DNA of 59,777 nucleotides from Burkholderiales bacterium (GTDB taxonomy: Bacteria > Pseudomonadota > Gammaproteobacteria > Burkholderiales > Casimicrobiaceae). The stretch covers positions 1 to 59,777 of the forward strand of contig JAICUU010000002.1 of assembly GCA_025935675.1 (NCBI GenBank), written 5' to 3'. The notes beneath the pieces are model-generated. The model did no database searches, was not told the DNA's origin, and saw nothing but the letters and a program-made list of their open reading frames with translations. The position numbers and the translations under genes were made by a program. This document shows positions 377 through 11,611 of the stretch, one piece after another. Position 1 is the stretch's first letter, and each line of letters begins with the position of its first letter.

Positions 377-1243
377 TCATCCCCTGAACCGCTCGGCGCC
401 GGTGAACAGCAGGAAGTGGCGGTTGGTGGCGCGGCCGATCATCGTCATGCCGACCTTTTGCGCGATCTCGTAGCCCATCTGCGTCAATCCCGAGCGCGAC
501 ACGAGGAACGGGATGCCCATCTGGGCGGCCTTGATCACCATCTCGGACGTGAGCCGCCCGGTCGTGTAGAAGATCTTGTCGCCGCCGTCGATGCCGTCGA
601 GCCACATCTGCCCGGCGATCGCGTCGACGGCGTTGTGGCGGCCGACGTCCTCGACGAACATCAGGATCTCGCTCGCGTCGCCGTCGTTGCTCGCGAGCGC
701 GCAGCCGTGCACTGCGCCCGCCTGCTTGTAGATCGTCTCGTGGAGTCGCACGCGCTCGAGCAGCGCGTACAGCGCGTCGCGCGTGAGCGTCGCGCCGGGC
801 GGCAGCTTCACGTCGTCGATCTCGGCCATCAGGTCGCCGAACACGGTGCCCTGGCCGCACCCCGATGTCTTGGTGCGCTTCGCGGTCTTCTCCGCGAGGT
901 CGGCCAAGCCGCCGCGCGTCTTCACCGCAACCGACTCGGTGTCCCAGTCGACCTGCACGGCGACGATGTCGCGGATGTCGTTGACGAGGCGCTGGTTGCG
1001 CAGGTACCCGATCGTCAGCGCCTCGGGCGCGGCGCCCAGCGTCATCAGCGTCAGGAGCTCCTGCTTGTCGACGTAGATCGTCAGCGGGTGCTCGCCGGCG
1101 ATCGACACGTCGCGGCGCTGGCCGTTCTCGTCGACGGCCTCGACGTCGAAGGTGGCGGGCCGCGCGTTGTGCGTGAGGACGGGGCGGTAGCGGGTGCCGC
1201 CGGCGTCGGCCGCGTCGCGCCCGGGGCGACCTTGCGCGCTCAT
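377..1243 (-). CDS. fdhD: Formate dehydrogenase accessory sulfurtransferase FdhD
   Basis: ORF from ATG at 1243; ...[12 protein letters not shown]..., [41 protein letters not shown] motifs of FdhD; ATG overlaps moaA stop. Confidence 0.95.
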
Positions 1244-2334
1244 CCGCCGATGTAGCTCATCTCGACCTTGTCGAGCCGGCGCGTCGCCTCGCTGCGGAGC
1301 TCCGAGTAGCGGTCGGCGCGCAGCGACCAGATCGCGCGCACCAGCGCGGCGATCTCGTCGTCGCTCGCGCCTGCGCGAAGCTGCGCGCGAACGTCGTCGC
1401 CGCTGCGCGCGAAGAGGCACGTGTAGAGCTTGCCGTCGGTCGACAGCCGCACCCGCGTGCAGTCGCTGCAGAACGCCTGCGTCACCGACGCGATCACGCC
1501 GACCTCGCCGCTGCCGTCGCGATAGCGCCACCGCTTGGCGACTTCGCCGGTGTAGTTGGGCGCGACCGGCTCGATCGGCATCTCGCGGTCGATCGCCGCG
1601 ACGATCTCGCCCGCGGGCACGACGTCGTCCATCCGCCAGCCGTTGGTATGGCCGACGTCCATGTACTCGATGAAGCGCATGATGTGGCCGGTGCCCTTGA
1701 AGCGGCGCGCCAGCGGCACGATCGCGTGCACGTTGACCCCGCGCTTGATCACGGCATTGACCTTGATCGGCGCGAGGCCCGCGGCGGCGGCGGCGTCGAT
1801 GCCGGCCAGCACGTCGGCGACCGGAAAGTCGACGTCGTTCATCGCCTTGAACGTCGCGTCGTCGAGCGCATCGAGGCTCACCGTGACGCGCTTCAACCCC
1901 GCGTCACGCAGCGCGCGCGCCTTTTTGGCGAGCAGCACGCCGTTGGTCGTCAGCGTGAGCTCGACGGGCAATTCGGCCAGCATCGCCACGAGTCGCTCCA
2001 GGTGCCGGCGCAGCAGCGGCTCGCCGCCGGTCAGGCGGATCTTGGCGACACCTGCAGCGACGAACGCGCGCGCGACACGCGCGATTTCCTCGAACGTCAG
2101 CAGCTTGTCCTGGGGCAGGAACTTGTAGTCGCGGCCGAAGATCTCCTTCGGCATGCAATAAACGCATCGGAAGTTGCAGCGGTCGGTGACCGAGATCCGC
2201 AGGTCGTGCAGCGGCCGCCCGCGCATGTCGAGCGGCTGCGCGTCGCGCGTGCCCGCGGCGTCGCGCTCGGCCAGCAGGCGGGCGCGGCGCTCGGCATCGC
2301 GGCGGTCGGCGAGCGGAATGACCTTCATGACCAT
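1240..2334 (-). CDS. moaA: GTP 3',8-cyclase MoaA (radical SAM)
   Basis: [19 protein letters not shown] radical SAM CxxxCxxC, C-terminal [20 protein letters not shown] cluster and C-terminal GG; ORF-track N-terminal extension to 3276 is spurious. Confidence 0.96.
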
Positions 2335-2475: not shown

Positions 2476-3027
2476 ATGTCCCTGCGAACGCAGATGACGA
2501 CTTTGAAGATTCCGCGATTCCCGGTGCACATCGTGATGCGCCGCACACCGCTCGTGAGCCGATGGGCCGACGAGAAGTGGGCGCCGTGGGGCATCGAGAT
2601 CGCCGGCGTGCCGCAGGACGATCTCGACGTCGTCGCGGCGCCGCCGGTGTGCTTTCGCGACGACGCGGAAATGACGCTGTGGCGCTTCGCGGGCTTCGCG
2701 CTCGAGATCCATCGCAGCGAGGGCGAGGGCTACTACCTCAACGTGCGCGAGGACGCGCCGCAGGTCTTCGTGATGTGGCGGCGCGACGACAGGCGCACGC
2801 CACCCGTGTACCCGGTGTTCGCGACGGTGAGCTACCACGAGGCCGCGCGCTCGATGGACGGCGGCGAGACCGTCGATCCGGTGCCGATGCCGATCGAGAT
2901 CCTCGCGTGGCTCGATGCCTACGTCGCCGCCAACTACACGCCCGAGGTCAAGGGCAAGCGTCGTCGGGTGGGCCCGTACGCCGATGCGCCGCCGGTGGGC
3001 GCGAACGCGCCGCGTCGCGAGTCGTGA
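2476..3027 (+). CDS. DUF3305 domain-containing protein
   Basis: [35 protein letters not shown]...; position beside DUF3306 in a formate dehydrogenase cluster; start may be 2494. Confidence 0.8.
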
Positions 3028-3680
3028 GCGTCCCCGGGAATCCCGCGGAAAAGCGCTTCTCGCTGTCGCGCTGGTCGGCGCGCAAGCGTGACGCGCGGCG
3101 CGGCCGTGCGAACGTCGCGGGCGATGACACTCGGCTGCGACAGGACGGTGTCGCCGCCGATCGCGTGCCGGCGCAAGCACCGGCCGGCGCGGTTTTGCCG
3201 GAGGCGGGCGACGCGCCGGTCGCGGTGCCTCTCCCCGATGTCGACGCGCTGACCTTCGATTCCGATTTCTCCGCATTCATGGCCAACGGCGTCGACGCCG
3301 ACGTGCGGCGCGCGGCGGTGCGCAAGCTCCTGCGCGACCCGCGCTTCAACGTGATGGACGGGCTCGACGTCTACATCGACGACTACACGAAGCCGGATCC
3401 GATCCCGCCGTCGATGCTGGCGCAGCTTCAGCACGCCGTTGCGACGCTGGCGCCGACGGCGGCGCCGGCGAGCGACGTGCCTGACGCCGGCAGCGCCGAA
3501 TCGCCCGTGGAAATCGCCGACGCGGGCGATGACGCAGCGCTTGCGTCACCGGTGTCGCTCGAAGCGCCGATCCCGCTTCCGGCAAGCGTCGCCGAAATCG
3601 ATCCCGACGCCATCGGCGCGGACGGCGCCGTACAACCCGCCATTTCGCGCGAGCATCTCGCGCCTTCACAAAAGACATGA
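3024..3680 (+). CDS. DUF3306 domain-containing protein
   Basis: GTG at 3024 overlaps upstream [19 protein letters not shown]...[56 protein letters not shown]3306 pattern. Confidence 0.8.
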
Positions 3681-5734
3681 CCGACGTCGCCGACAAATCG
3701 CTGTTCCTGTGCTCGTGCAACGGCACGCAGCCGCTCGACGCTGACGCGCTCGGGCGCGCGCTCGCGCTGCCCGAGGCGCCCGCGGTGCGCACCATGCTGT
3801 GTCATCGCGAGCTCGGCGACTTCACCGACGGCGCGCGCGGCGACGTGCTGGTCGCGTGCACGCAGGAGGCGCATCTTTTCAACGGCGCCGCCGAGCGTGC
3901 GGGACACGTGCGCACGATCCGCTTCGTCAATGTCCGCGAGAACGGCGGCTGGTCGAGCGACGCGCGCGCGGCGACGCCGAAGATCGCCGCGCTGATCGCC
4001 GCCGCGGCGCTGCCGGAGCCCGATCCGGTGCCGGTCGTCACGTACCGCTCGGGCGGCCAGGTCCTCGTCGCCGGGCCCGCGGCCGAGGCGCTGCGCTGGG
4101 CGCGCGCGCTTGACGGCCACGCCGCGGTGACCGTGCTCGTCACCTCGCGCGACGACGGCGTCGAGCTGCCCGCGACGCGCGACTTCGCCACGCACGCCGG
4201 TGCGCTCACCCGCGTCGCCGGCTGGCTCGGCGCGTTCGACGTCGAATGGCGCGTCGACAACCCCATCGATCTCGACGCGTGCACACGCTGCAACGCCTGC
4301 ATCCGCGCCTGCCCCGAGCACGCGATCGGCTTCGACTACCAGATCGACCTCGACGCCTGCCGCGACCACCGGGCGTGTGTCGCGGCGTGCGGCGAAGTCG
4401 GCGCGATCGACTTCGAGCGCGAAAAGACCACGCGCAGCGCGCGCTTCGATGCGGTCGTCGACCTGCAGCGCGTGCCGTCGCTCAGGGGCTTCGACACGCC
4501 GCAGGGCTACTTCGCTCCCGGCGACGACGTCGCGGCCCAGGCTCGCACGCTGGTCGAGGTGGCGTCGCTCGCCGGCGAGTTCGAGAAGCCGCGCTACTTC
4601 GCTTACAAGGCGTCGATCTGCGCGCATTCGCGCTCGCAGGTCGAGGGCTGCAGCGCGTGCATCGACGTTTGCTCGACGCGCGCGATCCGCGCCGATGGCG
4701 ACCATGTCGTCGTCGAGCCGCACCTTTGCATGGGCTGCGGCGGCTGCGCGACCGTGTGCCCGAGCGGCGCGATGCGCTATGCGTACCCGTCGATGCCCGA
4801 TCTCGCGCGGCGCGTGCGCACGCTGGTCGACACGTACACCGCCGCCGGCGGCCGCGACCCGGTCATTCTGCTGCACGCGGCGCAGGGCGCCGCGTCGATC
4901 GCGCAGGCCGCGCGGCATCGTCGCGGGCTGCCGTCGGCGGTGATCCCGGTCGAGGTCCATCACGTCGCGTCGGTAGGGCTCGACCTGTGGCTCGCGGCGC
5001 TCGCGTCGGGCGCTTCGCGCATCGCGGTGCTCGCCGGTCCCGACCTCGCGCCGAGCTACCGCGAGGCGATCGAGGCGCAGATGCGCTTCGGCGAGACGAT
5101 CGCCAACGCGCTCGGCTACCAGGGCGAGCATTTCCGCCTCGTGGACACCGATCCCGCGCGCTTCGACGACGCGCTGTGGCGCTGGGCTCCGCCGCTCGCG
5201 CCGCGCGTCACGGCGACGTTCGCCGTCGACGCGGACAAGCGCACGACGCTGGCGATGGCGATCGAGCATCTCGCGCGCCACGCGCCCACGCCGCAGACGC
5301 ACATCCCGCTGCCGGGCGGTGCACCCTTTGGCGCGATCGAGGTCGCGGCGAGCGCTTGCACGATGTGCCTCGCTTGCGTCGGCGCCTGCCCGGTCGGTGC
5401 GCTCGCCGACGGCCAGGACACGCTCGAGCTGCGCTTCATCGAGTCGCGCTGCGTGCAATGCGGCATCTGCGAGGCGACGTGTCCCGAGCACGCGATCACG
5501 TTGCGGCCGGGCCTCTGCCTCGAGCCGTCGGCAAAGGCGCTGCGCGTGCTCAACGCGGCACGCGTCGCGGCGTGTACGCGCTGCGGCAAGGCGCTCGGCG
5601 CTGCCAAGCTGATCGACGACATGGTGGCGCGCCTCGCGACGCATTCGATGTTCGCGACACCGGAGGCGCTCGCGCGCCTGCGGATGTGCGCCGACTGCCG
5701 CGTGATCGACCAGTTCGCCGCCACGGCGCGATAG
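3677..5734 (+). CDS. Polyferredoxin with HdrA-like N-terminal segment and MvhD-like (Cys-less) middle domain; formate dehydrogenase-associated
   Basis: Four clear CxxCxxCxxxCP motifs (CTRCNACIRACP, CMGCGGCATVCP, CTMCLACVGACP, CVQCGICEATCP) plus two degenerate ones; N-terminal LFLCSCNGT...VLVACTQEAHLF...RFVNVRENGGWS. Confidence 0.85.
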   Translation: MTDVADKSLFLCSCNGTQPLDADALGRALALPEAPAVRTMLCHRELGDFTDGARGDVLVACTQEAHLFNGAAERAGHVRTIRFVNVRENGGWSSDARAATPKIAALIAAAALPEPDPVPVVTYRSGGQVLVAGPAAEALRWARALDGHAAVTVLVTSRDDGVELPATRDFATHAGALTRVAGWLGAFDVEWRVDNPIDLDACTRCNACIRACPEHAIGFDYQIDLDACRDHRACVAACGEVGAIDFEREKTTRSARFDAVVDLQRVPSLRGFDTPQGYFAPGDDVAAQARTLVEVASLAGEFEKPRYFAYKASICAHSRSQVEGCSACIDVCSTRAIRADGDHVVVEPHLCMGCGGCATVCPSGAMRYAYPSMPDLARRVRTLVDTYTAAGGRDPVILLHAAQGAASIAQAARHRRGLPSAVIPVEVHHVASVGLDLWLAALASGASRIAVLAGPDLAPSYREAIEAQMRFGETIANALGYQGEHFRLVDTDPARFDDALWRWAPPLAPRVTATFAVDADKRTTLAMAIEHLARHAPTPQTHIPLPGGAPFGAIEVAASACTMCLACVGACPVGALADGQDTLELRFIESRCVQCGICEATCPEHAITLRPGLCLEPSAKALRVLNAARVAACTRCGKALGAAKLIDDMVARLATHSMFATPEALARLRMCADCRVIDQFAATAR

Positions 5735-5738
5735 CCCG

Positions 5739-6365
5739 GTGACCGCCACGGCGACCGTGCATTTGCCGATCGCGCCCGAGGACCGCGCGCGCGCCGACCT
5801 CTATGCGCTGCTCGCGCGGCTCTACGCGCGGGGGCCCGACGCCGCGCTCCTCGCGCGGGTCGCGGCGGCGCCAGCATTGCCGCCGGGCGAGGGTGATTCG
5901 CGGCTGTCCGAGGCCTGGAACGGGCTGCGGGCGGCGAGCGCCGCGATCGGTGCCGAATCCGCGGACGAGGAATACACGTCACTTTTCATCGGCATCGGCA
6001 AATCCGATCTCGACCTGCACGCGTCGCACTGGGTGGTGGGCGCGCGCTCCGAGCGGCCGCTGGTGCGCGTGCGCGCCGATCTCGCGCGCCTCGGGCTCGC
6101 GCGCCTTCCCGATGTTGCGATTTACGAGGATCATCTTGCAACGCTGTGCGAAGCGATGCGCGTGCTGATCGTCGGCGATGGATCGCGACCACCGTCGCCG
6201 ATCGACGAGCAAAAGCAGTTCTTCGACGCGCATCTCGGGCCGTGGATCGACGCGTGCTGCAATGCAATATGCAAACATGCTCTTGCAAACCTATACCGAT
6301 ACGTTGCACAATTGACTCAAGTACTAGTGGCGATCGAGCGCGACGCGTTCGCCATTGACCAATAA
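5739..6365 (+). CDS. TorD/DmsD-family molybdoenzyme chaperone
   Basis: GTG start; alpha-helical RADLYALLARLYARGPDAALL...EEYTSLFIGIGKSDLDLHASHWVVG, position upstream of FdhA. Confidence 0.75.
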   Translation: MTATATVHLPIAPEDRARADLYALLARLYARGPDAALLARVAAAPALPPGEGDSRLSEAWNGLRAASAAIGAESADEEYTSLFIGIGKSDLDLHASHWVVGARSERPLVRVRADLARLGLARLPDVAIYEDHLATLCEAMRVLIVGDGSRPPSPIDEQKQFFDAHLGPWIDACCNAICKHALANLYRYVAQLTQVLVAIERDAFAIDQ

Positions 6366-6699: not shown

Positions 6700-9600
6700 A
6701 TGCTTCTGACGCGTAAATCCCGAGGCGACACCGCGACGCCCCCGCTGCGACGGCTCGCCGCGCAGGCCGCGACGATGGACCGCCGCGCCTTCCTTCGTCG
6801 CTCAGGGCTCGCCGCAGGTGCCGGCGCGTTCGCGACGCAACTGCCGCTCGGCACCGTGGGCACCGCCGAAGCCGCGGGCGAGGGCGACACCGTCAAGCGC
6901 GAAGTGCACCGCACGGTGTGCACGCACTGCTCGGTGGGCTGCGCCGTCGACGCGACGGTCGAGAACGGCGTGTGGACGCGCCAGGAGCCGGTGTTCGATT
7001 CGCCGCTTTCGCTGGGCGGCCACTGCGCGAAGGGCGCCTGCGTGCGCGAGCACGGCATGCACGACCATTCGCAGCGCCTCAAGACGCCGATGAAGCTCGT
7101 CGGCGGCAAATGGCAGCGTCTGTCGTGGGACCAGGCGATCAACGAGATCGGCGACAAGCTCCTCGCCATCCGCAAGGAATCGGGGCCCGACGCCGTGTAC
7201 TGGGTCGGCAGCTCCAAGCACAGCAACGAGGGCTCGTACCTGATGCGCAAGTTCGTGTCGTACTTCGGCACGAACAACATGGACCACCAGGCGCGCATCT
7301 GCCACTCGACCACCGTCTCCGGCGTCGCCAACACCTGGGGCTACGGGGCGATGACGAACTCGTACAACGACATGCAGAACACCAAGTGCGCGCTGTACAT
7401 CGGCAGCAACGCCGCCGAGGCGCATCCCGTGTCGATGGTGCACATGCTGCATGCCAAGGAGAACGGCGCGAAGATGATCGTCTGCGACCCGCGCTTCACG
7501 CGCACCGCGGCGCACGCCGACCACTACATCCGCTTCCGCTCCGGCACCGACGTCCCGGTCCTGTTCGGCATCCTGTACCACATCTTCAAGAACGGCTGGG
7601 AAGACAAGAAGTACATCAACGACCGCGTCTACGGCATGGACAAGGTCCGCGAGGACGTGCTCGCCAAGTGGACGCCGGACAAGGTCGAGGAAGTGAGCGG
7701 CGTGCCCGAGGCGCAGATCTTCCAGGCCGCCGAAATGATGGCCAAGAACCGGCCGTCGACACTGGTGTGGTGCATGGGCCAGACGCAGCACACGATCGGC
7801 AACGCGATGGTGCGCGCGTCGTGCATCCTCCAGCTCGCGCTCGGCAACATCGGCGTGTCGGGCGGCGGCGCCAACATCTTCCGCGGCCACGACAACGTGC
7901 AGGGCGCCACCGACATCGGCCCCAACCCCGACTCGCTGCCGGGGTACTACGGCGTTTCCGAAGGCGCATGGAAGCACTTCGCGACGGTGTGGGGCGTGCC
8001 GTACGACTGGATCCTGAAGCGGTTCGCCTCCAAGGAGATGATGGAGAAGCCCGGGATCACCGTGTCGCGGTGGATCGACGGCGTGACGGAGAAGAACGAC
8101 CTGATCGACCAGGACTCCAACCTGCGTGCGATCGTCTACTGGGGCCACGCGCCCAACAGCCAGACGCGCGGCAAGGAAATGGCCGAGGCGATGAAAAAGC
8201 TCGACGCGATCGTCGTCGTCGACCCCTATCCGTCGGCCACCGCGGCGATGGCGGCGATGGTGCGCCAGGACGGCGTGTATCTCTTGCCCGCCTGCACGCA
8301 GTTCGAGACGTCGGGGTCGGTGACGGCGTCGAACCGCTCGCTGCAGTGGCGCGAGCGCGTGATCTCGCCGATGTTCGAGTCGCAGACCGACCACGCGATC
8401 ATGTACGCGTTCGCCAAGAAGTTCGGCTACGGCCCCGAGTTCGTCAAGAACTACAAGATCGTCAAGCCCGACGGCGACCGCAAGTTCGAGGAGCCGGAGA
8501 TCGAGTCGGTGCTGCAGGAAATCAATCGCGGCATGTGGACGATCGGCTACACCGGCCAGTCGCCCGAGCGGCTCAAGCTGCACATGAAGAACATGGCGAC
8601 GTTCGACGTCAAGACGCTGCGCGCCAGCGGCGGTCCGTGCGACGGCGACTACTTCGGCCTGCCGTGGCCGTGCTACGGTTCGCCGCAGATCAAGCACCCG
8701 GGCTCGCCCAACCTCTACGACGAGTCGCGCAGCATGATGAACGGCGGCGGCTGCTTCCGCGCCAACTTCGGCATCGAGCGCGACGGCGTCAGCCTGCTCG
8801 CCGAGGACGGTTCGCATCCCAAGGACAGCGAGCTCACCACCGGCTATCCCGAGTTCGACCACGTGCTCATGAAGAAGCTCGGCTGGTGGACGGAGCTCAC
8901 CCCCGACGAGCAGAAGGCGGCCGAGGGCAAGAACTGGAAGACCGACCTGTCCGGCGGCATCCAGCGCGTGACGATGAAGCACGGCGTGCACCCGTGGGGC
9001 AACGCCAAGGCGCGCGCGATCGTCTGGAACTTCCCCGACGGCATCCCGCAGCACCGCGAGCCGCTGTACTCGCCGCGGCCCGACCTCATCGACAAGTACC
9101 CGACGCACGACGACAAGAAGGTGTTCTGGCGGCTGCCGACGCTGTTCAAGACGGTCCAGCAGCGCAACCACGACATCAGCAAGGAATTCCCGCTGGTGCT
9201 GACGTCGGGCCGCCTGACCGAGTACGAGGGCGGCGGCGAGGAGACGCGCTCGAACCGCTTTCTGGCCGAATTGCAGCAGGAGAACTTCGTCGAGATCAAC
9301 CCGAAGGACGCGAACGACCGTGGCGTCAAGGCCGGCGACTACGTGTGGGTGAAGACGCCCACCGGCGCGCAGCTCAAGGTGCGCGCGCTGGTCACCCAGC
9401 GCGTCGGGCCCGGCACCACGTTCGTGCCGTTCCACTTCTCGGGCTGGTGGCAGGGCAAGGACATGCTGGCGTTCTATCCGGAAGGCTCGCATCCGATCGT
9501 GCGCGGCGAGGCCGTCAATACGGCCACCACGTACGGTTACGACTCGGTGACGATGATGCAGGAAACCAAGACCACGCTGTGCCAGGTGGTCAAGGTCTAA
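6700..9600 (+). CDS. fdhA: Formate dehydrogenase catalytic (molybdopterin) subunit, Tat-exported, Cys variant
   Basis: Tat motif DRRAFLRRSG; CTHCSVGCAVDA 4Fe-4S motif; ARICHSTTVSGVANTWGYGAMTNSYNDMQN (Cys at the Sec/Cys position); molybdopterin dinucleotide-binding C-terminus. Confidence 0.96.
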   Translation: MLLTRKSRGDTATPPLRRLAAQAATMDRRAFLRRSGLAAGAGAFATQLPLGTVGTAEAAGEGDTVKREVHRTVCTHCSVGCAVDATVENGVWTRQEPVFDSPLSLGGHCAKGACVREHGMHDHSQRLKTPMKLVGGKWQRLSWDQAINEIGDKLLAIRKESGPDAVYWVGSSKHSNEGSYLMRKFVSYFGTNNMDHQARICHSTTVSGVANTWGYGAMTNSYNDMQNTKCALYIGSNAAEAHPVSMVHMLHAKENGAKMIVCDPRFTRTAAHADHYIRFRSGTDVPVLFGILYHIFKNGWEDKKYINDRVYGMDKVREDVLAKWTPDKVEEVSGVPEAQIFQAAEMMAKNRPSTLVWCMGQTQHTIGNAMVRASCILQLALGNIGVSGGGANIFRGHDNVQGATDIGPNPDSLPGYYGVSEGAWKHFATVWGVPYDWILKRFASKEMMEKPGITVSRWIDGVTEKNDLIDQDSNLRAIVYWGHAPNSQTRGKEMAEAMKKLDAIVVVDPYPSATAAMAAMVRQDGVYLLPACTQFETSGSVTASNRSLQWRERVISPMFESQTDHAIMYAFAKKFGYGPEFVKNYKIVKPDGDRKFEEPEIESVLQEINRGMWTIGYTGQSPERLKLHMKNMATFDVKTLRASGGPCDGDYFGLPWPCYGSPQIKHPGSPNLYDESRSMMNGGGCFRANFGIERDGVSLLAEDGSHPKDSELTTGYPEFDHVLMKKLGWWTELTPDEQKAAEGKNWKTDLSGGIQRVTMKHGVHPWGNAKARAIVWNFPDGIPQHREPLYSPRPDLIDKYPTHDDKKVFWRLPTLFKTVQQRNHDISKEFPLVLTSGRLTEYEGGGEETRSNRFLAELQQENFVEINPKDANDRGVKAGDYVWVKTPTGAQLKVRALVTQRVGPGTTFVPFHFSGWWQGKDMLAFYPEGSHPIVRGEAVNTATTYGYDSVTMMQETKTTLCQVVKV

Positions 9601-9616: not shown

Positions 9617-10288
9617 ATGGCGCGAATGAAATTCCTGTGTGATGCCGAGCGCTGCATCGAATGCAACGGCTGCGTCACCGCGTGCAAGCAGGAGCACGAG
9701 ATTCCATGGGGCGTCAACCGCCGCCGCGTGGTGACGATGAACGACGGCGTCCCCGGCGAGCGCTCGATCTCGGTCGCCTGCATGCACTGCTCGGACGCGC
9801 CATGCATGGCGGTGTGCCCGGTCGACTGCTTCTACAAGACCGACCAGGGCGTCGTGCTGCACGACAAGGACATGTGCATCGGCTGCGGGTACTGCTTCTA
9901 CGCATGTCCGTTCGGCGCGCCTCAGTTCCCGCAGCTCGGCGCGTTCGGCGTGCGCGGCAAGATGGACAAGTGCACGTTCTGCGCCGGCGGCCCCGAGCCC
10001 GACGGCTCGGCCGCGGAATTCGAGAAGTACGGCCGCAATCGACTGTCCGAAGGCAAGCTGCCGGTGTGCGCCGAGATGTGCTCGACCAAGGCGCTGCTCG
10101 CCGGCGACGGCGACGTCCTCGCCGACATCTATCGCGATCGCGTGCTTCGCCGCGGCAAGGGCGCCGAGGTTTGGGGCTGGGCGACCGCGTACAAGGCGCC
10201 CGCCGGCGGCAACGGCGCCCCGCGACCCGCGGGCGCGACGCCTGCGCCTTCCGCAGGGCCCGCAGCACCCCAGGGAGGCAAGTCATGA
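9617..10288 (+). CDS. fdhB: Formate dehydrogenase iron-sulfur subunit
   Basis: CIECNGCVTACKQEH, CMHCSDAPCMAVCPVDC, CIGCGYCFYACPFGAP motifs. Confidence 0.95.
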   Translation: MARMKFLCDAERCIECNGCVTACKQEHEIPWGVNRRRVVTMNDGVPGERSISVACMHCSDAPCMAVCPVDCFYKTDQGVVLHDKDMCIGCGYCFYACPFGAPQFPQLGAFGVRGKMDKCTFCAGGPEPDGSAAEFEKYGRNRLSEGKLPVCAEMCSTKALLAGDGDVLADIYRDRVLRRGKGAEVWGWATAYKAPAGGNGAPRPAGATPAPSAGPAAPQGGKS

Positions 10289-10521
10289 CGCGCCGGCTCG
10301 AAGCAATCGTGGTGCCGCTGGCGGCGGCGTTGTCGGCGTTGATGCTGGCGGGCTGCGGCGAGCGTCCGCAGGTCGTCGATTACAAGCAGGGCACGTATTC
10401 GGGCAAGCCCGATACGCCGGCTTGGTCCAACGCGCCGTTCAATGGCAACGAGCAGGAGTGGACGAACGTGCTCAAGCAGCGCGCGCAGAACCAGAACGAG
10501 TACAAGCGGATCGGCGGTTGA
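10285..10521 (+). CDS. Small lipoprotein (78 aa) inside the formate dehydrogenase operon
   Basis: ATG overlaps fdhB stop; lipobox LMLAGC; sits between FeS and cyt b subunits. Confidence 0.75.
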   Translation: MTRRLEAIVVPLAAALSALMLAGCGERPQVVDYKQGTYSGKPDTPAWSNAPFNGNEQEWTNVLKQRAQNQNEYKRIGG

Positions 10522-10525
10522 CGCA

Positions 10526-11611
10526 ATGGCCGGCCACGATGATCCCGTGATGTCGCGCGCGATGCGTGCCGCGAGGTCCCTCGCGGTCGTCGTCGCCTGG
10601 GCAGCGCTGTCGGCAATGCCGGCGCACGCGCAATCGCCGGCGCTCAACGCCGACGATGCGGCGTCGGCCAAGGCCCAGCAGCTCCAGCAGGAGACCCAGC
10701 CGCTCAACAACCAGCCGGTGTGGTCGGAGGTACGCTCCGGCCGGCCGCAGGTGACGCAGGTGCGCGGCCGCGAGACCAACGTGCTGATCCAGCAGGGCGG
10801 GCAGACGTGGCGCGCGCTGCGCAACGGCCAGGTCGCCGTCTACGGCGGGTGGGCCATCGTCGTGATCCTGGTCGCGATCGCGGCGTTCTACCTGTGGAAG
10901 GGGCCGTTGCGGCTGCATTCGCCGATGACCGGGCGCAAGATCCGTCGCTTCCTGCCGTTCCAGCAGCTGATCCACTGGACGACGGCCACTGCGTTCGTCG
11001 TGCTCGCGATCACCGGCATCATCCTCGGCTTCGGCAAGAGCATGCTGTTGCCGATCCTCGGCCACACGCTGTTCTCGTGGCTTGCGCAGATCGCGAAGCC
11101 CCTGCACAACTTCATGGGGCCGGTGTTCGCGGTCTGCACCGTCATCATCTTCTTCACGTTCGTGCGCCGGAACTGGTGGCGCGCCTACGACATGGTGTGG
11201 ATCCGCAAGTTCGGCGGCATGTTGTCGGGTCACGACGTGCCGTCGGGCAAGTTCAACGCGGGCGAGAAGCTGTGGTTCTGGGGTGGCGTGCTGTTCCTCG
11301 GCGTCGTCGTCAGCGCCTCGGGGTTCGTGCTCGATTTCGCCAACTTCGACCAGACGCGCCAGACGATGCAGTGGGCGAACATCATCCACCTCGCGGCGGC
11401 ATGCCTGTTCATGATGGCCGGGCTCGGGCACATCTACATGGGCACGATCGGCATGATCGGCGCCTACCAGGCGATGAAGACCGGCTACGTCGACGAGACC
11501 TGGGCCCGCGAGCACCACCTGTACTGGTACGAGGACGTCAAGGCCGGCCGCGTCGATGTCGAAGCGGTGCCGTCGTCGAAGGAGCCCGCGGTGAAGCCGC
11601 GGCCCGCCTGA
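10526..11611 (+). CDS. fdhC: Formate dehydrogenase cytochrome b (gamma) subunit
   Basis: Signal peptide then RKIRRFLPFQQLIHWTTATAFVVLAITGIILGFG, PLHNFMGPVFAV, GGMLSGHDVPSGKFNAGEKLWFWGG; multi-TM cyt b family. Confidence 0.93.
   Translation: MAGHDDPVMSRAMRAARSLAVVVAWAALSAMPAHAQSPALNADDAASAKAQQLQQETQPLNNQPVWSEVRSGRPQVTQVRGRETNVLIQQGGQTWRALRNGQVAVYGGWAIVVILVAIAAFYLWKGPLRLHSPMTGRKIRRFLPFQQLIHWTTATAFVVLAITGIILGFGKSMLLPILGHTLFSWLAQIAKPLHNFMGPVFAVCTVIIFFTFVRRNWWRAYDMVWIRKFGGMLSGHDVPSGKFNAGEKLWFWGGVLFLGVVVSASGFVLDFANFDQTRQTMQWANIIHLAAACLFMMAGLGHIYMGTIGMIGAYQAMKTGYVDETWAREHHLYWYEDVKAGRVDVEAVPSSKEPAVKPRPA

Follow-up and report, generated by a model that had tools for sequence, protein, structure and literature searches.

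FdhE, a cytoplasmic accessory protein with a Cys4 iron site, is a maturation factor for exported formate dehydrogenases (FDHs) of E. coli. In the same bacterium, the ferredoxin-like proteins HydN and YsaA bind to an FDH and alter its activity; it has been argued that they act as alternative electron partners and do not serve maturation (PMC6004506). HycF carries a metal site with the spacing CxxC-x34-CPxC, located beside the formate dehydrogenase subunit FdhF, and its metal was proposed to regulate the binding of FdhF by redox state (PMC9474812). For the heterodisulfide reductase subunit HdrA, residues E356 and K409 were named at the FAD (PMC12054007). Within fdh operons that include DUF3305 and DUF3306, a gene designated 'fer4' was described by Bay et al. 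2015 (PMC4464133), and the expression of Shewanella SO4506, annotated as 'iron-sulfur cluster-binding protein', changes with that of the neighboring fdh genes (PMC2535785). Both are very probably the polyferredoxin gene analyzed here, in the same operon, SO4506 being assigned by gene order and annotation. Neither paper addresses where its domains come from or what it does, and the literature, as far as it was covered (in part), includes no description of the mosaic origin, the exact co-occurrence or the function of the polyferredoxin.

The window, the whole stretch of 59,777 nucleotides of a Burkholderiales bacterium that was analyzed, contains a tightly packed operon in the order DUF3305, DUF3306, polyferredoxin, TorD-like protein, TIGR02811 protein, FdhA, FDH3 beta and gamma (Table 1), so that the placement of the polyferredoxin in a respiratory FDH operon by an earlier note on this DNA was correct. 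DUF3305 and DUF3306 overlap by GTGA at 3024 and DUF3306 and the polyferredoxin gene by ATGA at 3677, suggesting coupled translation. Among 80 homologous loci, many of them incomplete, DUF3306 was found in 79, TorD in 77, DUF3305 in 76 and FdhA in 73, while moaA is present in 63 of the 80 and fdhD adjoins the operon in 50; both lie on the opposite strand in most of the long loci. Neither HdrB nor HdrC was detected among the identified operon genes, nor were hydrogenase genes. DUF3305 is similar to the DUF3305 part of the MobA fusion model NF011058 (E 5.5e-9). Its structural model, of pLDDT 91.5, showed no fold match in the PDB (best E 0.27); the model gives no mechanistic clue for this reason, and DUF3305 may represent an undescribed fold. 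The FdhC protein is extended at its N-terminus, ahead of the cytochrome b561 domain, by a long segment with a likely signal and an additional transmembrane helix.

Table 1. Coordinates and basis of assignment for the operon, its neighbors and the domains of the polyferredoxin
Feature	Position	Strand	Basis or remark
fdhD	377..1531	-	read from translation; approximate start
moaA-like molybdopterin biosynthesis gene	1240..2334	-	read from translation; approximate start
DUF3305 (PF11749)	2476..3027	+	profile match
DUF3306 (PF11748)	3024..3680	+	GTG start; profile match
Polyferredoxin gene	3677..5734	+	685 aa; translation as first quoted; homologues, alignment, AlphaFold2
HdrA-type N-terminal Fe-S domain, residues 1-116	3677..4024	+	C12, C14, C42, C61; hhalign to HdrA
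HdrA FAD domain, N-terminal edge, residues 117-195	4025..4261	+	alignment
HdrA inserted ferredoxin domain, residues 196-248	4262..4420	+	second motif with His231 for Cys
FAD domain, C-terminal edge, residues 249-311	4421..4609	+	HMMER alignment to 9sfi_A; sequence spacing
HdrA C-terminal ferredoxin domain, residues 312-372	4610..4792	+	domain i-E 1.4e-10 to 8rvu_a
MvhD/FlpD fold without cysteines, residues 373-512	4793..5212	+	PF02662 sub-threshold; Foldseek
Two [4Fe-4S] ferredoxin motifs, HycF-like, residues 552-612	5330..5512	+	profile, Foldseek
HycF/HyfH-type tail, residues 613-685	5513..5731	+	C633-x2-C636-x34-C671-x2-C674, candidate metal site
TorD/NarJ-type chaperone	5739..6365	+	PF02613, E 3.8e-22
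FDH-region Tat protein TIGR02811	6355..6678	+	above cut-off
FdhA catalytic subunit, Cys type	6775..9600	+	Tat signal MDRRAFLRRSG; start placed by eye
FdhB, 'FDH3 subunit beta'	9617..10288	+	NF038355, 343 bits, cut-off 240
FdhC cytochrome b gamma subunit	10442..11611	+	TIGR01583, 158.7 bits, cut-off 115.9

The coding status of the polyferredoxin frame is not in doubt, since 80 full-length homologues, mostly betaproteobacterial, share 47-65% identity with it. A mechanical frame of 773 aa runs antisense to it (3428-5749, minus strand) and is longer than the real gene; showing no gene signs, it is probably a GC-rich shadow frame. The four canonical and two degenerate ferredoxin motifs of the earlier note are present in the translation exactly as quoted there: four CxxCxxCxxxC motifs start at C202, C351, C561 and C592, and the degenerate ones are C228-x2-H231-x2-C234-x3-C238 and C315-x9-C325-x2-C328-x3-C332. 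One further quartet, C633/C636 with C671/C674, was absent from that list. All cysteines except C614 are invariant in an alignment of 55 betaproteobacterial sequences, and the protein is predicted to hold about six or seven clusters in a chain. The AlphaFold2 model has a mean pLDDT of 91.2 and a pTM of 0.86. No export signal or signal peptide is visible in the protein as read from the translation.

The N-terminal half of the polyferredoxin is related to HdrA. In hhalign, a profile of 55 sequences matched four PDB HdrA chains over residues 8-215 with a probability of 97.3% (E 1.9e-11), the letters of the PDB chains, and only those, being taken from printed search alignments; the N-terminal domain alone gave E 7.8e-5 and a probability of 61%. 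C12, C14, C42 and C61 align with four HdrA cysteines and are invariant in the 55 betaproteobacterial sequences. HdrA was the top Foldseek match of the model (E 9.0e-15) and the global TM-score was low (0.24), suggesting that the individual domains are alike and that their arrangement differs. The isolated N-terminal domain gave no match in NCBIfam or the PDB in a sequence-only search, and the HdrA signal emerges only from the fold and from comparing profiles over a long co-linear stretch. The HdrA-like N-terminus proposed by the earlier note thus holds, and the likeness extends to the inserted and C-terminal ferredoxin domains of HdrA, which that note had missed; both are present, with one Cys replaced by His231. 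This His occurs in 54 of the 55 betaproteobacterial members, and the resulting CxxHxxCxxxC motif (4358-4390, residues 228-238) may hold a His-ligated [4Fe-4S] or a [3Fe-4S] cluster. In both gamma-type members checked (L107 and L111), C354 is replaced by Ala, leaving three Cys in that motif.

The FAD domain of HdrA has collapsed to two edge pieces, in agreement with the vestigial flavin domain suggested from the sequence. Its core, with the E356/K409 segment, is absent and its first and last strands are left: residues 117-195 have lost GxGxxG and keep the G-(W/Y)-LG-x-F strand, and PQGYF of residues 249-311 aligns with PEGFF of HdrA (HMMER, 9sfi_A). From Cys238, the last of the inserted ferredoxin, to Cys315, the first of the C-terminal ferredoxin, the distance is about 76 aa, compared with well over 250 in HdrA. 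Since both GxGxxG and the E356/K409 stretch are missing, flavin bifurcation is not expected, and an active bifurcating HdrA was rejected as an identity for this protein. The following MvhD/FlpD part gave sub-threshold profile matches, with 15.9 bits on residues ~404-492 (PF02662, E 0.013) against the Pfam gathering threshold of 22.3, and with sub-threshold FlpD (PF02662) matches in 5 of 13 family members (best E 8.4e-4). Its fold was recognized by Foldseek in four MvhD chains (5odc_D, 5odh_D, 7bkb_F and 8rvu_F; prob 0.97-1.0, TMt 0.59-0.69). No Cys exists between residues 361 and 561, and the [2Fe-2S] cysteines of MvhD are absent, as the earlier note had indicated for its middle region. HdrA was thus matched by profile and MvhD by sub-threshold profile matches and by fold, and no other known fold covered the whole protein.

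The C-terminal module was missed by the earlier note, which otherwise described the HdrA and MvhD parts and the tie to FDH correctly. Residues 551-674 match HycF by profile (E 4.9e-13) and by Foldseek (TMt 0.78), and isolated tails without the ferredoxin motifs match the HycF model NF009053 in 14 of 15 cases (best E 5e-5). The tail and HycF have in common the Cys quartet spacing CxxC-x34-CxxC, the simple x34 pattern failing in 4 of 84 polyferredoxin sequences. Zinc-finger matches of the isolated tail in the PDB, obtained via a CxxCGK motif, were rejected as compositional, and the NCBIfam HycF match was used. The best reading of these sequence comparisons is that an HdrA-MvhD-like ancestor of the polyferredoxin shed two sites, for flavin and for [2Fe-2S], and gained a HycF-like module by fusion.

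Among 299 Pseudomonadota genomes, the polyferredoxin family was matched in 55. The same 54 genomes carry the polyferredoxin, DUF3305, DUF3306 and FDH3 beta above cut-off (Fisher p 4e-59, the species not being independent), indicating a strict link to one FDH type and supporting the tie of an Hdr-derived protein to FDH clusters with DUF3305/DUF3306 that the earlier note had proposed; the DUF3305 and DUF3306 genome lists were compared by eye and the other co-occurrences were computed. The 55th genome (G186; L125:2946-10329) carries a relative with a 515-aa open frame beside a Tat-signal molybdoenzyme, an Fe-S subunit, NrfD and a TorD-like protein, indicating that the family is not limited to FDH3. 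In a tree rooted with this relative, three architectures form three clades. The betaproteobacterial members are full length; the alpha-type members, from outside the GTDB class of the window and presumably Alphaproteobacteria, are devoid of the inserted ferredoxin; the gamma-type members, with open frames of 554-589 aa, are devoid of both the inserted ferredoxin and the N-terminal HdrA domain. Remnants of the FAD domain are kept in all clades, for which loss from an HdrA-like ancestor would be the simplest explanation. In five genomes, one polyferredoxin stands against two genes for FDH3 beta, indicating that it acts in trans. In one locus (L124, G174:C97:556000-570000), a second FDH3 cluster has its own DUF3305, DUF3306 and TorD and is without polyferredoxin.

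Based on this distribution and the domain composition, we consider it somewhat more probable than otherwise that the polyferredoxin is a cytoplasmic multi-cluster Fe-S accessory dedicated to the Tat-exported molybdenum FDH of the 'FDH3' type, helping its maturation. This function is favored by the adjoining maturation genes (TorD, fdhD, moaA and DUF3305 with its similarity to a MobA fusion domain), the trans action on two FDHs, the HycF-type tail, the precedent of HydN and YsaA as ferredoxin-like partners of an FDH in E. coli, and the near-absence of FdhE, which was found in 2 of 54 polyferredoxin genomes and in 43 of 245 others (p 0.01, relatedness not being corrected, and many FdhE-less genomes possibly having no FDH). 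Because FdhA bears a Tat signal and the polyferredoxin no visible one, contact must precede export, and a meeting with the mature periplasmic FDH is not expected. A stoichiometric FDH subunit is disfavored by both copy number and topology. Before export, the HycF-like metal tail would dock the precursor of FdhA, or of FdhA-FdhB, together with TorD, DUF3305, DUF3306 and FdhD, and the cluster chain would supply electrons or clusters to load or reductively activate the Mo-bisPGD and Fe-S cofactors; the polyferredoxin would thereby do for FDH3 the job that FdhE does for FDH-N/O of E. coli. The step served could lie in providing the Mo cofactor with electrons, in loading Fe-S clusters or in proofreading. 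This function is weakened by the argument that HydN and YsaA are electron partners and not maturation factors, by the weak FdhE contrast, by the many clusters, which maturation leaves unexplained, and by the gamma-type members without the first domains.

The earlier note had left the choice between an electron wire and a maturation or redox sensor role, which the mismatch with Tat export, the copy number and the near-absence of FdhE tilt toward maturation and away from a respiratory wire. A cytoplasmic wire would lead electrons from low-potential carriers (ferredoxin, or NADH via another protein) to the membrane FDH, for example through FdhC on its cytoplasmic side, or to an FdhA that stays in the cytoplasm. 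Electron transfer is the task of both the HdrA-MvhD and the HycF modules, each of which touches an FDH in a known complex (7bkb for FDH-HdrA-MvhD; formate hydrogenlyase for HycF), and conserved clusters are many; however, FdhA bears a Tat signal, the loss of the flavin site and the MvhD cysteines leaves no entry for hydride or NADH, a single copy accompanies two FDH3 beta genes in the five genomes, and no donor gene is conserved among the 80 loci, making such a wire unlikely. An Fe-S scaffold or carrier, handing clusters instead of electrons to apo-FdhA/FdhB, is doubtful to a somewhat greater degree: the clusters with changed ligands (H231, and C354A in the two gamma-type members) could be labile, but most of the motifs are intact, and complete ferredoxin motifs as a rule bind their clusters tightly, and the Mrp/NUBPL-type iron-transfer ATPase adjoining the gene, which would suit such a carrier, is limited to two genomes of one genus. 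This P-loop ATPase lies directly after the polyferredoxin gene (L119:1083-1964 and L123:2507-3388, both minus strand) in a genus that belongs to another GTDB class than the window, and was seen nowhere else. A redox or metal sensor gating FDH export or activity via the Cys4 metal site, as proposed for HycF, is improbable despite that HycF model and the conservation in most members of Lys638 at the position of HycF Arg122, since no regulatory domain is present and a sensor needs no full cluster chain.

If the maturation function is true, the polyferredoxin is a testable candidate for the assembly of a widespread respiratory FDH class in bacteria mostly without FdhE, and DUF3305 and DUF3306, domains of unknown function, are tied to the same assembly step. 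The reuse of HdrA parts without flavin chemistry calls for caution in annotating such proteins as bifurcating, and as the production of FDH limits work on converting CO2 to formate, a maturation partner that has been missing is of practical use. More tentatively, and at less than even odds in our judgment, an HdrA-MvhD bifurcation protein of the methanogen kind may have lost its sites for flavin and [2Fe-2S], acquired the tail with which formate hydrogenlyase docks its FDH, and evolved, in company with DUF3305 and DUF3306, into a self-contained maturation system that supplies electrons and takes the place of FdhE across an entire class of exported FDHs.

Compared with known systems, the polyferredoxin is not homologous to FdhE, which is nearly absent from the genomes that carry it. 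HydN and YsaA are likewise ferredoxin-like and associate with the catalytic subunit of an FDH, whose dye-linked activity they increase (PMC6004506), but they are small single-domain proteins for a cytoplasmic FDH. HdrA of type Ia (HdrA2, the HdrA-MvhD fusion) has the same N-terminal Fe-S domain, FAD-domain edges, inserted ferredoxin, C-terminal ferredoxin and MvhD fold in the same order; the polyferredoxin differs by the absence of the FAD-binding core, the E356/K409 segment and the MvhD cysteines, by its operon without HdrB/HdrC and by its extra HycF-like C-terminus. HycF/HyfH of formate hydrogenlyase has the same two [4Fe-4S] motifs followed by CxxC-x34-CxxC, whereas in the polyferredoxin this module is fused to HdrA/MvhD parts, stands in an operon without hydrogenase genes, and accompanies an FDH that is Tat-exported and quinone-linked.
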